Shown: in pieces, positions 12,942-26,033 of the stretch
Layout: the number at the start of each line of letters is the position of its first letter
How positions within the stretch are numbered: position 1 is the first letter of the stretch
NCBI RefSeq assembly: GCF_040954645.1
Contig: NC_092806.1
Span: 79,642,641-79,706,640, forward strand
DNA length: 64,000 nucleotides
DNA from: Diabrotica undecimpunctata
Taxonomy: Eukaryota > Arthropoda > Insecta > Coleoptera > Chrysomelidae
Direction of reading: 5' to 3'
Notes under the pieces: model-generated
The model's database searches: none
Seen by the model: the letters and a program-made list of their open reading frames with translations, nothing else
What the model was told of the DNA's origin: nothing
Position numbers and translations under genes: made by a program

Positions 12942-13832
12942 TTAATGCCTTCTATAATTATGAAACCATATCCAATTTTTGTCCTTTTCCCATTAGTCTT
13001 TTCATCTGCTGCTATCTTCCTAAGATTTCTTTGTATCTCTATATCTTTTAATGTTAGGTCACATTCTATATATACTCTATGTTGCTTATAGTTTATTAGT
13101 TTACCCTCGGCTTTCAGTATTTTCATTTTATCTTCGAATTTTTTACATTCGATAACACACATTGTTTCATTTATCTTTTGTACCCTATTTATTTCTGATT
13201 TTACTCCCATTTTTGTTTCTATGAAGTTCTCCAGTTGCTCTACTTCTATTGTGTCTATTGGTAAGCCTCTCATTATTAGGTTATTTTTCTTCTTTTCTTT
13301 CTGACATGCTTCCAAGGCTATTTCTATTTTATCTATTGTTGTGAATTTATTAAAAGGTTCAATATTTATAACACTTACGGATTTAATTTATTTCTTTATT
13401 TATATTAACTTATCTGACAATAATTTATTATATCCGTACGTAACAAATTCGCGAGCGCGGGTCTTGAGAATTCACTGCCCTCCATATAAAAATGTTGTAT
13501 TTATATACGAAATCCTGATATACTAGAACAGCATCGAAAGATCGCATTGTCGTGCATCGAAAAATCGAGAAGCATCTAGTTGGATGATTCACCATAATTT
13601 GAATCTAGATCCTTCGCCAAAATCTCTACAATAAAACAGAATTATTAGTGAATAACAACATGTTTTAAAGGTTAAAACTATGACTCATATTTTTACGTAA
13701 CACTATTTTTTGTTTCATCGTTGTGATTTCTTTCTTTAGATTTTCATTTTCTCTTATTATTTCTTCCATTTGCAATTTGTATTCACTATTTTCCTTCCTA
13801 ATTTCTTTTAGTTCCTCAATCATATTACCCAT
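12866..13832 (-). pseudogene. LINE ORF1, split by a solo LTR
   Basis: ORF1 starts at an ATG at 13830-13832 and opens with a strong charged coiled coil (MGNMIEELKEIRKENSEYK). The 366-bp solo LTR cuts it at 13702. Beyond the LTR the frame continues with KKNNLIMRGLPIDTIEVEQL and an RRM-like region ending in ITYNTEPTGSKN at 12866. If the LTR and one copy of its 4-bp duplication are left out, the two halves join in the same frame. ORF1 proteins of this coiled-coil plus RNA-binding type bind LINE RNA. Only the interruption disables this one. It overlaps ORF2 by 76 bases. Confidence 0.8.
13337..13702 (-). repeat. solo LTR of the element A family
   Basis: In reverse complement this is a diverged copy of the LTRs at 14329-14719 and 22368-22760. 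It starts with TGTTACGTAAAAATATGAG at 13702 and ends with 'aattcacaaca' at 13337. It is flanked by CTAT on both sides (13333-13336 and 13703-13706), a 4-bp target-site duplication. It is slightly shorter than the 391-393-bp LTRs and clearly diverged in the middle. Confidence 0.88.
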
Positions 13833-14129: not shown

Positions 14130-14190
14130 TATCATAATTATTAAAATAACCAAATACATTGCAAATAAAAAACTTTTTAAACTTATTATT
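14130..14190 (-). repeat. left half of the repeat split by element A
   Basis: In reverse complement this matches 28050-28115, including 'aatgtatttggttatttt'. The other half of the same repeat lies on the far side of element A at 22761-22862. Element A is therefore inserted in this repeat, with some 15-20 target bases missing. Confidence 0.75.
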
Positions 14191-14328
14191 GCGAAGAGAA
14201 AACCGTCCCTTGTCATTTTTATACAATTGGAAGTTGTAAAAGAGGGTCCAGTTGCCGATACCAGCATACCGTTCCAGTTCTAGTCCCGACAAGGTTCCAG
14301 GAGGAACCATCTTTTGAGAGGGGGGCAA
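14191..14328 (+). mobile_element. internal 3' remnant preceding the first LTR of element A
   Basis: Nearly identical to 22235-22367, the last internal bases of element A, including 'gagaaaaccgt', 'aggttccaggaggaacc' and the polypurine tract GAGAGGGGGG (14316-14325). A polypurine tract belongs directly before a 3' LTR. Finding it before the first LTR means this LTR was once the 3' LTR of an upstream copy, now almost entirely deleted. Confidence 0.85.
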
Positions 14329-14719
14329 TGTTACGTAAAAATATGAGTCATATTAAAAACCTGTAAACATGTTTATTACTAATATCCTTATTTATTCGAG
14401 TATTTTCTAGGTCATGAATACCTGACACACGATGTTATAAAAACAAAGTTTGAGGCAAGTCGATGGGAAATCCAGTTTGCCCTTACCGTTTTCGCCGCCC
14501 AGTCTAGTCGAGAGGATTGTCGACTTTTCGAGATAACGGCAGTTTTTGTATATAAACGAAACATTTTATATGGAGGAACAGTTAATGAAGAAGATTCGCG
14601 CCCGCGATTTAAATGTTACGTTCGTCTATATAAATTATTGTAAGATAAATTAATATAAATAAAAATAAATTAAATTCGTAAGTGTTATAAATATTGAACC
14701 TTTAAATAAATTCACTACA
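14329..14719 (+). repeat. 5' LTR of element A
   Basis: Begins TGTTACGTAAAAATATGAG and ends 'aattcactaca'. It contains a TATA-like 'tatataaac' at about 14550. It matches the 3' LTR at 22368-22760 apart from a few substitutions and small indels, such as 'aaaacaaagtttgaggc' against 'aaaaaaagagttcgaggc'. It is preceded by a polypurine tract, so it also served as a 3' LTR. Confidence 0.92.
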
Positions 14720-14788
14720 ATGGTGTCAGAATAGTGGAATACATAAGATAAATTGCGAAAATAAATTACAAGTGAATATTTGTAAATT

Positions 14789-16102
14789 GTGAAAATGACG
14801 ACGATTTATGAGCTGACAGTGACTAATTTAAGAAGACATCTCGAAGGCAGAGAATTAGCTTTTACCGGAAAAAAGGCTGAGTTAGTCCAACGACTAAAGA
14901 ACGCTTTGCTAGAAGAAGGACTAGATCCAGAGGCTTATATATTTGAAGATGCTGTCCTCTCGACGATTTCGAAAGTTTCTTCTGATGTAGCCAAAGTTTC
15001 TGGTGACATCGCATCATTAAAGAACAAAGTTTCTGGCGATATTTCGAAAGTTTCTGGTGACATCGCATTATTAGAGAACAAAGTTTCTGACGATATTTCG
15101 AAGGTATCTTCTGATGTAGCCAAAGTTTCTGGTGACATCGCATCATTAGAAGACAAAGTTTCTAACGAGATTTCGTCCCTGGAAAGCAAAGTTTCTGCTA
15201 ACATCTCTTCGGAAATCTCTAAAGTAACTTCTGAGATGTCTGCCCTCGACGATAGAATATCTTCGTTAAAAAACCAAGTTGCTGCCGATATGTTGGCCTT
15301 CGAAGAAAAGATATGGAAAGAGATGGAAAAGAAGCTGGAGGAAACAGGGACAGCAGAGAAAGGAAACAATCCAATTATAGTGGAGACAAAAGAAGACGAG
15401 ACGAAATGTAAGTTGGAAACACGGCCGAAATTTGAAGGAAGTGGAAGTCCTGTGCATGTCAAAGTCCCAACTTTCGACGGAAAACCGTCATGGAACAACT
15501 ACATGAAACAGTTCGAATCAGCTGCAAGAGCGAATGGATGGTCTGAAAAAGAAAAGGCTGTAAACCTGACTATCGCTCTTCGTGGAGATACCTTAGATGT
15601 GCTTCAAACCATAGCCGTAGAGGAGACCGATGATTTCGAACAACTGAAGAAGAGGTTAAATATGCGATATGGCCACGAACATTTGGAGCATGTATACCAG
15701 TCGCAGCTTAAAAATCGTAGACAGAAGAAAGATGAGGCTCTTCAAGAATATGAGGTAGATATTGCCAGATTAGTACGATATGCTTATCCAACAGCTCCCG
15801 AAGACATGATGGAAAAATTGGCCGTCCAAACGTTTATTGATGGTCTTCGTGATCATGAAATGCAGAGAACACTGCGATTAGCTCGTCACAAGACGCTGGT
15901 TGATGTCTTATCAGCCGCCCTCGAATACGAGTCAGCTGCGCAGGCCTCTGGCGGGTACAGTAAAGTTAGGACTGTAAAAGAGGAAGGAGATGAAGATAAA
16001 CTTGACCAGCTCGTTAATATGATGAAAAGCATGTCATGCAAGAAAAAGAAGACCATAAAATCAAGAAACTCACCATCAGGAAAACCAGAACGAGGCAGCT
16101 AG
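14789..16102 (+). CDS. Gag of element A, with SAP domain and coiled-coil repeats
   Basis: 437 codons, uninterrupted. Residues about 5-50 (IYELTVTNLRRHLEGRELAF...KKAELVQRLKNAL) match a SAP domain, a helix-turn-helix fold that binds DNA in chromatin proteins. Residues about 57-175 are a repeated coiled coil built on SKVSSDVAKVSGDIASL-like units. A retroviral-type capsid region follows from about residue 225 (VPTFDGKPSWNNYMKQFE, ALRGDTLDVL, FIDGLRD). The usual CCHC zinc knuckle is missing: the end reads CKKKKTIKSRNSPSG. A related Gag fragment at 40372-40581 keeps a knuckle, so loss by deletion is likely. Gag assembles the particle around the RNA; the SAP domain suggests chromatin or DNA contact, but that is inference. 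Confidence 0.85.
   Translation: MKMTTIYELTVTNLRRHLEGRELAFTGKKAELVQRLKNALLEEGLDPEAYIFEDAVLSTISKVSSDVAKVSGDIASLKNKVSGDISKVSGDIALLENKVSDDISKVSSDVAKVSGDIASLEDKVSNEISSLESKVSANISSEISKVTSEMSALDDRISSLKNQVAADMLAFEEKIWKEMEKKLEETGTAEKGNNPIIVETKEDETKCKLETRPKFEGSGSPVHVKVPTFDGKPSWNNYMKQFESAARANGWSEKEKAVNLTIALRGDTLDVLQTIAVEETDDFEQLKKRLNMRYGHEHLEHVYQSQLKNRRQKKDEALQEYEVDIARLVRYAYPTAPEDMMEKLAVQTFIDGLRDHEMQRTLRLARHKTLVDVLSAALEYESAAQASGGYSKVRTVKEEGDEDKLDQLVNMMKSMSCKKKKTIKSRNSPSGKPERGS
14955..15180 (+). repeat. minisatellite encoding the Gag coiled coil
   Basis: Short units such as 'aaagtttctggtgacatcgc' recur in frame about four times with small changes (ga/ca variants). They encode VSGDIASL and ISKVSS repeats with a hydrophobic residue at regular spacing. 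Expansion by slippage is the simplest explanation. Confidence 0.8.
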
Positions 16103-16106
16103 GGGG

Positions 16107-17028
16107 GCAGCTCCGACCCGGAACTCTTCCAAAGACCCTCTTATACTAATAGCTTCTTTGAAATGTCGTGAAGATAGTGTATATGTAGATGGAGAAATAA
16201 ATGGTAGAAGGCATACGTTGTTGGTGGATACCGGAGCGACCAGAACCATTATACGCCCGACAGTTATAAACAGCCGTAAGAAACTGTTACCAACGAGATT
16301 GCGACTTCGGACCGCTACAGGTAAAATGCCAACATTCATGGAGAAATCCAGGTACAATTGGGAATTGGAGCAGAAAAGTTCGTCCATACTGTTATAGTTG
16401 CTGACATCGAAGAGGATGTTATATTAAGAATGGACGTAATGAATACGCATGGATTCCAATTGGATTTTAAGAATAAGGCAATCAAAGTTGGTAATGAGGA
16501 GGTATTTCTCCATCCACATAATGACAACACTGTGCAAGCAGCCATTAAAGAAGATACAGTCGTGCCTGCGAGAAGTAAAACGATCATAGTAGCGCGGCTA
16601 CAGGGAATTGTGGACGAAGGGAGACCTGTTATGATGGAGCCTTGGAACCACGACGATGAGGTTGGCCGTGGAATCATAATTGGAAAAGAATTGGTGACTT
16701 CGGCTAAGGAAATTCCTCTGAGACTTATCAATGTCAACGACTACCCAGTGACCATAAAGAAAGAGACAAAAGTAGGAACTTGTGTACCTGTGACATCCAT
16801 AATCCGTCAGGCGACAACATCTGATAATTCCAACGACAAATTCGACCAAATGGTTGCAGTTGCAGGACAGTCTCTGAATCAGATTGAGAAAAGGAAATTA
16901 AGGGAATTTCTTCGGCAGTATCGTTTATTTTCGTACCGAAAGGAGGAAAGACGGGAAGAACTACCGTTGTTAAGCATAAAATTGATACTGGTAATGCTAA
17001 GCCAATTCGTCAAACAGCTCGACGATTA
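16107..17028 (+). pseudogene. element A protease and start of pol
   Basis: Pol is in a different frame from gag and opens with GAAPTRNSSKDP right after the gag stop. The aspartic protease active site is LLVDTGATRTIIRP at about 16220-16260. A one-base deletion near 16335 shifts the frame. Reading resumes as GIGAEKFVHTVIVADIEEDV with the ILxMD motif (VILRMDVM) that closes Ty3-type proteases. The linker to the reverse transcriptase (KIDTGNAKPIRQTARR region, with one more shift near 16940) ends where the DNA transposon enters at 17028. Confidence 0.85.
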
Positions 17029-17404
17029 TAGTCGCCTCGTATTTCGGTGAGACTGTGTAAAAATATATTTATCTGTAATAAAAGCAGACAATAAAAAATA
17101 AAATAAAAGTACTCTACCAGGAGTAGTTATTAACTGCAAAATTATCAATGACTGAGATGTATAATAATACAAAGTTTTAATATTCTCATCGATATTTACA
17201 TTTAGATGAGCCTGGTAAAATATGTACAGTCGCTCAGATAAAGTTATCATCGATGCATTCTTTGCGTAAGATAACAATTTTTGCCTGAGCAACCGAAACC
17301 ATAAAGTAGTTTATCCCAATAAATTTCGTTTCGACCGTCCAGTGGTTTACAATTGGGTAGGCAGGTATAATATTTTATATTATTTTAAACTTTATTTTTA
17401 AACG

Positions 17405-18261
<857 letters not shown>

Positions 18262-19093
18262 ACTATAAATATAGAAGATACAACTGATACTAGTGATAAC
18301 AGTGATTATGAGTAGATTATTAAGTTCTTATTTCCAACTAGGTGTTAGTTGAAACCTTTATTTTTATTGTAATTGTACAAATTCTCGTTTTGCTTATATA
18401 TCTTTGAAAATAGAGTACAAATACACTTCATGATAGAACAAAAACATACAACATAATTTAATTTAAAATAATCAAAGTACAGGTTAGGTTATTATAAAAT
18501 ACCTGCTAGATATATAAAAAAGATGTTCATAAAAGTTTTAGACCTATTACCCATTTTTAAATTATTGAGATACTAAGGCTTCTCTCACACGGTGTCAAAC
18601 CAAAGTTGTTAATAGAATACGTTGTATATAATTTAAAAAATTAATTCTTTATTTTTTTTATTACAATAACTAAGTTATCAGGGATAAAATGTGATCATAA
18701 GTTTTAAAACTTATGAGCAGTTGTGTTATTAAAACGTTTGTATACTAAAATACTTGTACATAAAAAATTTATTTAATTGTATGTGATAATTACTTTTATG
18801 AACAATTTTTTATAGGTATTGTTATTTTACAATAAGTTCTATTTAGCCGAGTCGATTAGTGTTATCACTTCCTAGATATATCACAGAAGTTAACAACACC
18901 AATATTTTTTATTTAAACTTTATAGAAAATGAAACTTTTTCTTAAATAAAAATAAAAACTTTTATTTAATTAAAAATTAGATATCTACGCTACTGTTCAA
19001 TAAAGTAGTGGTAACTCTAACAGTGTTGCCATTTTAGTAGTATTTTACTCCTCTGGTTCCTATAAATTTTCTCACGAAATTACGTGTCGACTA
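18262..19093. other. non-coding 3' part of the mariner-related element
   Basis: About 830 AT-rich bases between the transposase relic and the right inverted end of the element. No other gene is visible. Confidence 0.6.
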
Positions 19094-19095
19094 TA

Positions 19096-19965
19096 CCACA
19101 GGCGAAAAGAGAGGAAGCTGAAACGATTGTTCAGGAAATGAAGAAAGACGGGGTGATAGAACCTTCTACGAGCCCATGGGTCTCTCCGGTGGTCCTGGTT
19201 AAGAAGAAAGACGGAACGACGAGGTTCTGTGTGGATTACCGTTTGCTGAACAACGTTACCAAGAAAGATAGTTATCCTCTGCCTCGGATCGATGACACAT
19301 TGGACACATTGGCTGGAAGTAAATTGTTTTCTACTTTGGATTTGAAGTCTGGATACTGGCAGGTAGAAATGGACCCAGTAGATAAAGAAAAGACAGCCTT
19401 CATCACAGGATCTGGATTGTGGCAATTCAACGTTATGCCATTTGGACTCTGTAATGCTCCTGCGACATTTGAGAGGCTTATGGAAAATGTGTTTAAAGGG
19501 TTATCTTGGAAAACATGCCTGTTTTATTTAGATGACATAATCGTCTTGGGGGAGACATTCGAAGAACATTTGAAGAATTTAGAAAACGTTTTTAATCGAC
19601 TTAAAGCTGCCCAATTGATGTTAAACCCCAAGAAGTGCCAGCTATTTCAAGGTAAAGTCAATTATCTGGGTCATATAGTCAGTAAAGAAGGAGTGGCCGT
19701 GGATAAGGGAAAAATCGATTCCATTAAGGAATGGCCAAAACCAACTGACAAACATCAAGTGAGAAGTTTTCTTGGACTATGTACTTACTACCGGAGGTTT
19801 ATTAAGAAGTTTGCAGATATCGCTAAGCCATTAACGCGACTTACAGAGGAAGCAAGAGACTACCGCAGGGATACAGACTGCCAAAATGCTTTTGAGACCT
19901 TAAAAAAGCATTTAATCACTGCACCAATTTTAGGGTATCCACTGCCAGAAGGAGAGTCGTCTTAG
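19096..19965 (+). pseudogene. element A reverse transcriptase
   Basis: Ty3-type RT, open for about 290 codons after the transposon insertion. It shows VIEPSTSPWVSPVVLVKKKD (palm entry), TRFCVDYRLLNN, FSTLDLKSGYWQVEM (motif A, catalytic Asp), GLCNAPATFERLM (motif B), FYLDDIIVLG (motif C) and LNPKKCQLF, then the connection with KVNYLGHIVS and SFLGLCTYYRRFI. The catalytic residues are all present. A frameshift at about 19960 (GESS then stop) separates it from RNase H, and the 17029-19093 insert separates it from the protease. Confidence 0.93.
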
Positions 19966-20624
19966 ATACAGATGCAAGTAATGTGGGAATTGGAGGAGTG
20001 CTGTCTCAGATTCAAGGAGGACAGGAACGAGTCCTCGGATATTTTAGTAAAGCTCTTTCAAAACCTGAGCGGAATTATTGCGTCACGAGAAGAGAACTTC
20101 TAGCAGTAGTAAAATCAGTAGAGCACTTCTATCAATACCTTTATGGTAGGAAGTTTCTAATCCGAACCGACCATGCCGCCCTTAAATGGTTGATGCAGTT
20201 TAAGAATCCAGAGGGTCAGATAGCCAGGTGGATCGAACGACTCCAAGAATACGATTTTAAGATTGAGCACCGGGCCGGAGTTAGCCACAGAAACGCTGAT
20301 TCTCTTTCCACAAGGTCATGCCCAGCAGAGTGTTCCCACTGCTACAAAACGGAATCCAAGGAAGCAGCAGTGCTAAGAACAACGATGGTCAACGACGACT
20401 GGACGCCTACTAAGATCAAAGAAGAACAAGAAAGAGATCCAGTTATACAGAAAATTCGAAAATGGAAAGAGGAAAACCGTCGACCACCTTGGCAAGAAAT
20501 ATCAAACCTATGCTCAGTAGTTAAGACGTATTGGGCCCAGTGGGACTCATTCATCATGGAAGATGGCTTGCTCAAACGAGTCCTGAAAATGATGACGGTT
20601 CAGAGAAGAGAAGACAGTTGGTGA
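19966..20624 (+). pseudogene. element A RNase H and linker
   Basis: RNase H begins just across the frameshift with VVLDTDASNVGIGGVLSQ. It keeps the acidic set: D in TDAS, E in RRELLAVVKS, D in IRTDHAALKW and D in HRNADSLS. It removes the RNA strand during reverse transcription. A linker (TKIKEEQERDPVIQKIRKWK) leads to a second frameshift at about 20590, after which the integrase frame begins. Confidence 0.9.
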
Positions 20625-22270
20625 TCCCAAAGAGCAGAATAGCCGAAGTACTTCGTCAGTTACACGACAGTCCATCAGGAGGGCAGTTTGGTGTAAAGAA
20701 AACCCTTCAGCGAATTCGGGAACGGTTTTATTGGATGAACAGTTCCGACGACGTAAAAGACTGGTGTAAGAAATGTACTATTTGTGCTACGAGTAACGGG
20801 CCTTACCGAAAAAGGAGAGCTCCTATGAGACAATATAATGTTGGAAGCCCGTTTGAAAGAATAGCCTTGGACATTGCTGGGCCATTTCCAGAAAGTGAAA
20901 ATGGAGGCAAGTACATGTTGGTAGTAATGGATTACTTTACTAAGTGGGTCGAGATTTACGCACTTCCAGACCAGAAGGCCGCCACCGTTGCAGATAAGTT
21001 GATCCAAGAATATATCAGCCGATTTGGAGTGCCTTTGGAGATACATAGTGACCAAGGCAGGAACTTCGAAAGCGATCTATTCCAAGGAATATGTGATAGA
21101 CTAGGCATGAAGAAAACAAGAACTACAGCATATCATCCGCAATCTGATGGTATGGTAGAACGGATGAATAGGACAGTCGGCAAGTATTTGACAAAGATGG
21201 TGTCCGATCATCAGCGAGACTGGGACCAATACCTTCCGTTCTTCACAATGGCCTACAGATCTGCTGTTAACGAATCAACAGGCCAGACACCAGCCAGAGT
21301 CCTATTCGGACGCGAAATGCGACTACCTTGTGATCTAGAGTTTGGGTGTCGACCTGGAGAAGATGTAGCAGGGGAAGATTATGTGATCGAATTACGAAGA
21401 AGAATGGACGATGTACATGAGTTGGTCCGTTCCCACCTTCAGATCGCTAGCGACCGAATGAAGAAACGGTACGATACACAAGCCGAAAAGGGTTGCTTTA
21501 AGAAGAACGACAAAGTCTGGCTCTATAATCCCAAGAAGCGTAAAGGTTGTTCTCCTAAATTGCAGCAGTTTTGGGAAGGCCCATACCAAATTATGGAGAA
21601 GATCAACGATGTCATCTACCGATTAAGCAAGATTCCGAAGGGAAAGCCGATGATAGTACACCATAACCGGCTGGCGTCTTTCGAAGGTGACCACGACGTA
21701 GATGAAGAAGTGGAAGTAAACCAAGTCCAAGACGTGTCTGACCTCACGTTTGAGGAATTCATGGGTGCCTATGGAGGTACCGGTAAAGCAAGACATGGTG
21801 TTACCACTGAAGAAAAGCAAGATCTACTCGCGCTCCCCGATGACTACTCGCTGGCCCTTACCATCCCGGCCAGTATCAAAGACGCACCAGGGTTGGCATC
21901 CGTCTGTCGAAGGAAGTTTGGTCGAGTTGCAGAACTTCAATGCCAGGTGCCAGCTCCCGGTAAAACCTTGAAACTCCAAGATGCATCACGTTACCTTTTC
22001 TACCTGGTAACAAAAGACACTGCCCGTGACCAACCTACCTACCGAGATGTATGGGAAGCCTTACTTCAATTGAGAGAGCACGTACTAGAGTCCGACGTGC
22101 AAAGGTTAGCCATGCCAAAGTTGGAGTGCCGTCAATTAGATTGGAGGGTTATCCGAAATATGGTAGAGGAGATCTTTAAAGACACCGAAGTCCAGGTGTT
22201 AGTCTGTTGCAATCCGCATAGTTACTGGTGCGGAGAGAAAACCGTTCCTTGTCATTTTTATACAACTTGA
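20531..22270 (+). CDS. element A integrase fused to a macro domain
   Basis: One open frame of 579 codons; the authentic part starts near 20592, where RNase H shifts frame. The zinc-binding end reads LHDSPSGGQFGV...CKKCTIC, with Gln where the second His is expected. The core has ALDIAGPFPE (Asp), IHSDQGRNF (Asp) and DGMVERMNRT (Glu). After the C-terminal fold (KVWLYNPKKRKG, GPYQIMEKI, HHNRLASF) comes an acidic linker, then residues about 437-560: LPDDYSLALTIP, GLASVCRRKFGRVAEL, ASRYLFYLVTKDTA, QPTYRDVWEALLQLREH, AMPKLECRQLDWRVI, VEEIFKDTEVQVLVC. These match the order and spacing of a TARG1/OARD1-type macro domain, which binds or removes ADP-ribose. The Lys of the YLVTK stretch is kept; the glycine loops are altered. 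A chromodomain, the usual extra module here, is absent. Confidence 0.9.
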   Translation: MGPVGLIHHGRWLAQTSPENDDGSEKRRQLVIPKSRIAEVLRQLHDSPSGGQFGVKKTLQRIRERFYWMNSSDDVKDWCKKCTICATSNGPYRKRRAPMRQYNVGSPFERIALDIAGPFPESENGGKYMLVVMDYFTKWVEIYALPDQKAATVADKLIQEYISRFGVPLEIHSDQGRNFESDLFQGICDRLGMKKTRTTAYHPQSDGMVERMNRTVGKYLTKMVSDHQRDWDQYLPFFTMAYRSAVNESTGQTPARVLFGREMRLPCDLEFGCRPGEDVAGEDYVIELRRRMDDVHELVRSHLQIASDRMKKRYDTQAEKGCFKKNDKVWLYNPKKRKGCSPKLQQFWEGPYQIMEKINDVIYRLSKIPKGKPMIVHHNRLASFEGDHDVDEEVEVNQVQDVSDLTFEEFMGAYGGTGKARHGVTTEEKQDLLALPDDYSLALTIPASIKDAPGLASVCRRKFGRVAELQCQVPAPGKTLKLQDASRYLFYLVTKDTARDQPTYRDVWEALLQLREHVLESDVQRLAMPKLECRQLDWRVIRNMVEEIFKDTEVQVLVCCNPHSYWCGEKTVPCHFYTT

Positions 22271-22367
22271 AGTTGTAAAAGAGGGTCCAGTTGCCGATAC
22301 CAGCATACCGTTCCAGTTCTAGTCCCGACAAGGTTCCAGGAGGAACCATCTTTTGAGAGGGGGGCAA

Positions 22368-22760
22368 TGTTACGTAAAAATATGAGTCATATTAAAAACC
22401 TGTAAACATGTTTATTACTAATATCCTTATTTATTCGAGTATTTTCTAGGTCATGAATACCTGACACACGATGTTATAAAAAAAGAGTTCGAGGCGAGTC
22501 GATGGGAAATCCAGTTTGCCTTTACCTTTTTCGCCGCCCAGTCTAGTCGAGAGGATTGTCGACTTTTCGAGATAACGGCAGTTTTTGTATATAAACGAAA
22601 CATTTTATATGGAGGAACAGTTAATTAATAAAAGATTCGCGCCCGCGATTTAAATGTTACGTTCGTCTATATAAATTATTGTAAGATAAATTAATATAAA
22701 TAAAAATAAATTAAATTCGTAAGTGTTATAAATATTGAACCTTTAAATAAATTCACTACA
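22368..22760 (+). repeat. 3' LTR of element A
   Basis: 393 bp, preceded by the polypurine tract GAGAGGGGGG (22355-22364) and beginning TGTTACG. It ends 'aattcactaca' at 22760, followed by the right half of the target repeat. Confidence 0.93.
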
Positions 22761-25313: not shown

Positions 25314-26033
25314 TCAGTCAAAAGTCAATATAAAATTGTAAATTTTGCTAAGATTCTGGATCTCAGATCCTTTATTCAGATTGTTATTATCACTCTTGCT
25401 GATATGTACCATCTCTAAGAAAGTTCTCTTAAATTTATTTTTCTCTCTGGCTAATATTTTTACATTGTTGAAATCTATCTTATGGTCTAGATCGATAGTA
25501 TGCTCTGCCAAAGCACAAGTAGGTTTGTTTAATCTACAGTCACTCTTATGAGAAATGATACGACTAGACAGATTCCTTCCAGTTTCACCAATGTACGTGG
25601 ATGGACATTCAGTACATTGAATGCAATAAACGACATCTGTAGTCTCTAAAGTAGTTAGGGGTTGTTTTATTTTACGTAGGTTTTTACATAGCTGACGTAT
25701 GGTTTTGATGTTCTTGTTAGCTATTTTGATATTCTTAAATTCTTTGAAAATCTTAGTGAGTTCAATGGTTAGTTTCGGAATATATGGAAGGGCATAAAAA
25801 TACACACTTGTTGGAGCAGAATTAATTTGTGCAGATGGCACTGATTGTGACATAGTAAGAATGTTATTTCTATTAACAAAAGGAACATTAAAAATTAATT
25901 TGTTAATCAGTCTTGGAGGATATGAATTTTCAACAAAAATATTACGTAAGAGGTTGAGATCATGTTGGAGATAATCCTGATGTGATAACCTTTTGACACG
26001 TACTTTCATCGCTAGGACTAAATTAGTTTTCAT
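25314..26033 (-). pseudogene. Penelope-like GIY-YIG endonuclease end, 5' truncated
   Basis: 239 open codons. The region from about residue 135 carries VVYCIQCTECPSTYIGETGR, the GIY-YIG core with the Cys pair typical of Penelope-like elements. It is followed by LSSRIISHKSD, CALAEHTIDLDHKIDFNNVKI and KFKRTFLEMVHI. GIY-YIG cuts the target DNA during insertion. The first 130 residues resemble the stretch between RT and endonuclease. The RT itself is absent, cut off at the palindromic junction near 26040. The apparent start codon is not the real one. Confidence 0.88.

Follow-up and report, generated by a model that had tools for sequence, protein, structure and literature searches.

In the window analysed here, a stretch of 64,000 nucleotides from the beetle Diabrotica undecimpunctata (genome assembly of 1.743 Gb in 2867 contigs), a TARG1-type macrodomain is fused in frame to the C terminus of a Ty3/gypsy integrase. 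The fusion belongs to a long terminal repeat (LTR) retrotransposon (14329-22760, + strand) that carries gag, reverse transcriptase (RT), RNase H and integrase, ordered as in Ty3/gypsy by their Pfam matches, and it is encoded by an open reading frame (ORF) of 579 amino acids (20531-22270, + strand), open throughout, in which Pfam finds Integrase_H2C2 at residues 32-89, rve at 108-203 and Integrase_p58_C at 350-382. Behind an acidic linker the frame continues into residues 431-558 (21821-22204), for which phmmer against the PDB finds human TARG1/OARD1 as a 128-residue match with an E-value of 6.4e-20, and the corresponding domain of a second lineage in the same genome matches TARG1 with E 1e-28. 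A structure model and fold comparison confidently predict a macro fold of the TARG1 type for the domain (21785-22225); an initial AlphaFold run, given 7 element sequences, reached a pLDDT of 47 and was set aside. The first-pass annotation of this DNA had proposed that a Ty3 integrase carries a fused macrodomain of the TARG1 type, and the phmmer match together with the fold comparison confirms it.

One result weighs against the identity of the domain: the Pfam Macro family (PF01661) matches neither the window protein nor the element relative P0001, and other element relatives give only sub-threshold matches to it (E 0.0017-0.15). Since the TARG1-like gene of the host in the window genome also stays under the cutoff (E 0.088), PF01661 is a poor test for the TARG1-like branch. 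The profile search that the annotation had asked for thus came out divided, as PF01661 gave no match, an outcome contradicted by phmmer to TARG1 and by the fold comparison. Chance resemblance to TARG1 is ruled out by the E-value of 6e-20 and the recurrence of the domain in three lineages.

Copies of the fusion in beetle genomes and origin of the domain

A domain search of the window genome yielded 5444 first-look candidates, of which 150, including the window copy, were scored; as they were ranked by the domain itself, the sample is biased. All 150 contain the full 145 residues at 99-100% identity and free of stops, many of them within open frames of 1400-1850 amino acids. For a less biased sample, still of young copies, 20 of the 39 other loci listed by integrase DNA (40 scored of 1285 candidates) were taken. 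Macrodomain DNA was detected by blastn in 20 of 20, once in two pieces; the frame runs uninterrupted through both the domain and the zinc finger behind it in 12 of them and through the domain alone in 1 more, is broken in 5 and was not read in 2. Both samples thus answer in the affirmative whether other family copies carry the domain, as the annotation had suggested checking. In Diabrotica virgifera, LOC126893360 carries the macrodomain region with 89% identity to the window. A protein search found 187 matches with E up to 0.001, and the 120 that were listed are all Aromia moschata proteins with the domain; 117 show the integrase p58 domain in a count by eye (exceptions P0092, P0101 and P0104), and other hosts are possible among the remaining 67 of the 187 matches. 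For the second lineage of the window genome 150 of 5424 candidates were scored, 148 of them stop-free, at about 46-49% identity to the Aromia query, and 12 loci were fetched, of which 11 were read. The macrodomain is therefore a family trait that persisted through amplification to thousands of candidate copies, and a one-off fusion, an assembly join or a gene-model artefact is ruled out by the 150 scored copies, the 20 integrase-picked copies and the two other species.

Among 30 loci of the window lineage (L001-L030) the domains are 99% identical, yet the finger and all that follows it, the 3' LTR included, vary widely, at about 81-98% identity in aligned pieces, which we ascribe to LTR turnover or recombination among subfamilies. 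Past the 3' LTR of these loci, TA predominates at flanking positions 2-3 (21 of the 25 readable loci have the T and 21 the A), and integration seems to have a local DNA preference.

In a midpoint-rooted tree of 24 domains, nine from elements and 15 from other sources, the nine element domains form one clade (97/96; present in 96% of bootstrap trees). This clade groups with TARG1-like proteins of beetles, L043 from the window genome, P0122 from Aromia and P0124 from Photinus, and with the metagenome protein P0123 (86/89, below the strict mark). The domain was apparently captured from a TARG1-like gene of the host, and the annotation's view of it as a captured host gene piece agrees with this placement. 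As the second lineage of the window genome groups with Aromia (91/84) and not with the window lineage, and as the element domains form one clade, a single capture before the split of the element lineages would be the simplest account. The three beetle proteins, the closest cellular relatives in the tree, retain both catalytic residues and an intact MGSGIA loop and, unlike the elements, show no integrase domain in the sequences seen. L043 (C3:100934209-100934595) lies in a 760-amino-acid open frame whose N-terminal part is long and highly charged, and which also has another region at the C terminus.

A viral origin of the domain was set aside on the grounds that the tree puts the elements with beetle hosts, but only provisionally, since the tree holds no named viral sequences. 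The nearest viral fold is the TARG1-like VP8 of Kadipiro virus (BFVD A0A8E0KJF2, E 5.6e-14). Two TARG1-like proteins, P0131 and P0132, are encoded on short metagenome contigs (longest 10,581 bases each) that could be viral. The macro fold is likewise found on the genomes of plus-strand RNA viruses (alphavirus nsP3 and others), whose macrodomains are however more distant in fold (Foldseek TM about 0.7, 12-14% identity) and have no link to an integrase. The macrodomain of the antitoxin DarG, a bacterial eraser of DNA marks, is 19-24% identical.

Anatomy of the element and its surroundings

The features of the element are as follows.

14190-14328, + strand: 3' tail belonging to a further copy, with zinc finger and purine tract, abutting the 5' LTR upstream; 97% identity with 22229-22367
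14329-14719, + strand: 5' LTR, TG...CA, 391 bp; 97.5% identity with the 3' LTR, termini read directly
14795-16102, + strand: gag ORF, 435 amino acids; Pfam SAP and Retrotrans_gag
16220-17050 (approximate bounds), + strand: protease region; DTGA motif at about 16227, tblastn homology to an Aromia polyprotein
17051-19083 (approximate bounds), no strand given: insertion interrupting pol; contains a (TA)n tract as well as a DDE_3 remnant of Tc1/mariner type
19084-19965, + strand: RT, RVT_1 (Pfam E 1.3e-38)
19983-20624, + strand: RNase H, in a frame different from RT (Pfam RT_RNaseH E 2.5e-29)
20624-21676, + strand: integrase with H2C2 zinc domain, catalytic core and p58-type C-terminal domain (Pfam)
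21677-21784, + strand: acidic linker; its F[EN]EFM motif is conserved in relatives
21785-22225, + strand: TARG1/OARD1-type macrodomain; Lys84 equivalent kept, Asp125 loop two residues shorter
22250-22306, + strand: CCCH zinc finger coding sequence, broken by an in-frame stop (22268-22270)
22368-22760, + strand: 3' LTR, 393 bp, with a purine-rich tract just before it

LTRs around gag and pol and the order protease, RT, RNase H, integrase place the element in Ty3/gypsy (Metaviridae). An env ORF as in errantiviruses is absent, as just 97 bp separate the ORF end at 22270 from the 3' LTR at 22368, and it is not a chromovirus by its Pfam matches, since the Chromo family is absent from those of the window protein and the macrodomain occupies its spot. 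The SAP domain at the N terminus of Gag (about 14813-14908, Pfam E 1.3e-5), which precedes Retrotrans_gag (about 15569-15853, E 4.7e-7), is likewise present in many Aromia relatives. The protease is identified by motif and homology only, a Pfam scan of 16358-17047 having found 0 families. Across the insertion tblastn against the Aromia polyprotein gave no element homology, and its DDE_3 match (E 2.9e-4) lies below the cutoff. Because pol is split over three frames, with RT, RNase H and integrase each in a different one, and because the roughly 2-kb insertion separates protease from RT, the window copy itself is not functional. The linker motif F[EN]EFM recurs in 116 of the 120 listed Aromia rows, in P0001 and in the second lineage of the window genome (L044, L045). 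The junction of the further copy's tail with the 5' LTR may reflect LTR-internal-LTR tandems or an array with shared LTRs.

The end of the 579-residue ORF is not the natural end of the protein, because relatives continue through a CCCH zinc finger within which the window copy has its stop. Such a finger follows the macrodomain in D. virgifera, in Aromia and in both lineages of the window genome, and is part of the module. It is intact in P0001 (Pfam E 7.1e-7), in the second lineage (E 8.3e-6) and in Aromia, where 106 of the 120 listed rows show the strict spacing C-x7-C-x5-C-x3-H. In the second lineage the finger is similar to those found in CPSF4 (best E 2.8e-6), a similarity that we take as a lead only.

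Elsewhere in the window, two pieces of a related LTR (13335-13702, - strand; about 82-84% identity, opposite orientation) represent a solo LTR or a remnant of another subfamily. Fragments at 40738-40076, 49693-49352 and 33649-32481 (all - strand) comprise gag/protease homologues of the Aromia elements as well as a distinct integrase of Ty3 type that is 26% identical to P0001. An ORF at 25314-26033 (- strand) encodes a GIY-YIG domain (Pfam E 9.2e-5), presumably of the kind found in Penelope-like elements, and overlaps an inverted repeat with 407-nt arms of 97% identity.

Catalytic residues and possible functions

The element domain shares significant homology with TARG1 (OARD1, C6orf130), an ALC1-like macrodomain hydrolase, and differs from it by its fusion to integrase and, in the window lineage, by a shortened Asp125 loop and an altered glycine loop. 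The catalytic pair of TARG1 is Lys84 and Asp125 in PMC9411070, while PMC7050489 gives residue 125 as Glu125 instead of Asp. In Aromia both are retained: of the 120 listed rows, 119 can be read at the start of the domain, and among these 118 have YLVTK and 115 have SGLDG. The window lineage keeps the Lys of VTK (30 of 30 domain-ranked copies, 15 of 18 readable integrase-picked copies), and its loop corresponding to Asp125 (GCGLD) is two residues short, as in D. virgifera, and lacks the Asp. In the second lineage it is Lys84 that is changed, to Arg, with the Asp kept (11 of 11 copies read). In all nine element rows of the 24-domain set, Aromia included, another residue takes the place of the first glycine in the MGxGIA loop. 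Both halves of what had been claimed for these residues, a kept VTK Lys and altered glycine loops, are thus seen in the alignment. However, loss of the Asp does not prove the enzyme dead: PMC9411070 describes as hydrolases both DarG, which has the Lys but not the Asp, and SCO6735, which has neither.

How could an integrase make use of such a domain? We lean, at a little less than an even chance, towards the domain of the window lineage being an ADP-ribose reader on the intasome, derived from a captured eraser and placed where a chromodomain would be. The position had already been pointed out by the annotation, and it is borne out by comparison with Ty3: in both, an accessory domain is added in frame after the integrase C-terminal domain, the element having a macrodomain and CCCH finger in place of the chromodomain, and the C-terminal chromodomain of Ty3 integrase contacts Brf1 and target DNA (PMC8632968, in part). 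The macrodomain would travel with integrase into the pre-integration complex and act on ADP-ribose there. The captured ancestor was probably an ADP-ribose eraser, because Aromia still has the complete catalytic pair, and the Aromia version may be one as well. In the window lineage, the pocket would bind but not turn over the ADP-ribose present on chromatin, on DNA ends or on host proteins, and this binding could tether the intasome as chromodomains do. Modules of the CCCH and SAP kinds are nucleic-acid binders elsewhere, and here the finger and the SAP domain of Gag may add such contacts. As the catalytic pair eroded by different routes while the fold remained constrained, a binder would fit better than an enzyme. 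The chromodomain-like position, the substrates of TARG1 and a loose link between PARP-1 and retroelements (both below) together lead us to infer an integrase-tethered ADP-ribose module.

Several observations weigh against the reader. With the first glycine of MGxGIA changed in every element row ADP-ribose may not bind at all, a point tempered by 2 of 15 non-element rows that also miss it (Aphis P0129 and P0134). The loss of the Asp would, on the precedent of DarG and SCO6735, be compatible with retained hydrolase activity, and the TA preference in the 3' flank is the sole targeting signal looked at. Selection on the domain is visible between the two lineages of the window genome, which differ at 93 of 146 third codon positions compared with 67 first and 47 second positions (p 1.8e-6; dN about 0.5, dS saturated), and this third-position excess means that selection kept the protein. 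However, between lineages the macrodomain is 38-49% identical as against 56-66% for p58, about like the linker (28-45%), in a comparison that includes some rows from gene models with gaps, and 12 young copies show 21 nonsynonymous and 10 synonymous variants (pN/pS about 0.6), from which alone selection is not evident.

These last figures are what could be expected of a functionless host exon fused by chance to the 3' end of pol, where a C-terminal addition costs little. Such a passenger is nevertheless highly improbable and already disfavoured, as the frame was kept in three lineages so far apart in the domain, third positions are in excess and all 150 scored copies are full length. Rather doubtful, though a good deal less so, is an active eraser that removes ADP-ribose from integrase, complementary DNA ends or nearby chromatin and thereby counters PARP-dependent silencing or repair. 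It would suit the intact dyad of Aromia and the range of TARG1, which strips ADP-ribose from Asp/Glu, from phosphorylated nucleic-acid ends and from DarT-type thymidine marks (excerpts of PMC7050489 and PMC9411070). A weak further point is that in parp-1 mutant Drosophila, of the 8 mobile elements with a significant change, 5 are up and 3 are down; a further ten, of which nine are gypsy-type, rise without reaching significance, and an indirect route is named by the authors (PMC7712786, in part). The missing Asp125 of the window lineage and D. virgifera, the Arg of the second lineage and the replaced glycine, in Aromia too, speak against an eraser. Alteration of both active-site loops in a still confidently predicted macro fold, next to CCCH and SAP modules, known nucleic-acid binders, would be accommodated by a repurposed fold that no longer handles ADP-ribose and serves integrase as a structural, nucleic-acid-binding or protein-docking module. 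This is unlikely, and the dyad retained in Aromia as well as the persistent VTK of the window lineage are at odds with it.

For the reader, a wider consequence can be imagined, which is doubtful: the element might aim or protect its integration via ADP-ribose, its intasome docking onto chromatin marked by PARP or onto the ADP-ribosylated ends of nicked DNA, with an eraser version in Aromia and reader versions in the window lineage and D. virgifera. Among titles and abstract openings returned by literature searches, no paper described a fusion of a macrodomain to a retrotransposon integrase, and we know of no earlier case of a retrotransposon whose integration is guided or protected by ADP-ribose. 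Accessory domains of integrases help to set where retrotransposons land, with chromodomains as the textbook case, and ADP-ribosylation marks DNA damage, chromatin opening and antiviral defence. If true, a macrodomain at the end of integrase would link integration to ADP-ribosylation, and nature itself supplies dyad-intact, Asp-less and Lys-less domains as ready variants for comparing reader and eraser.
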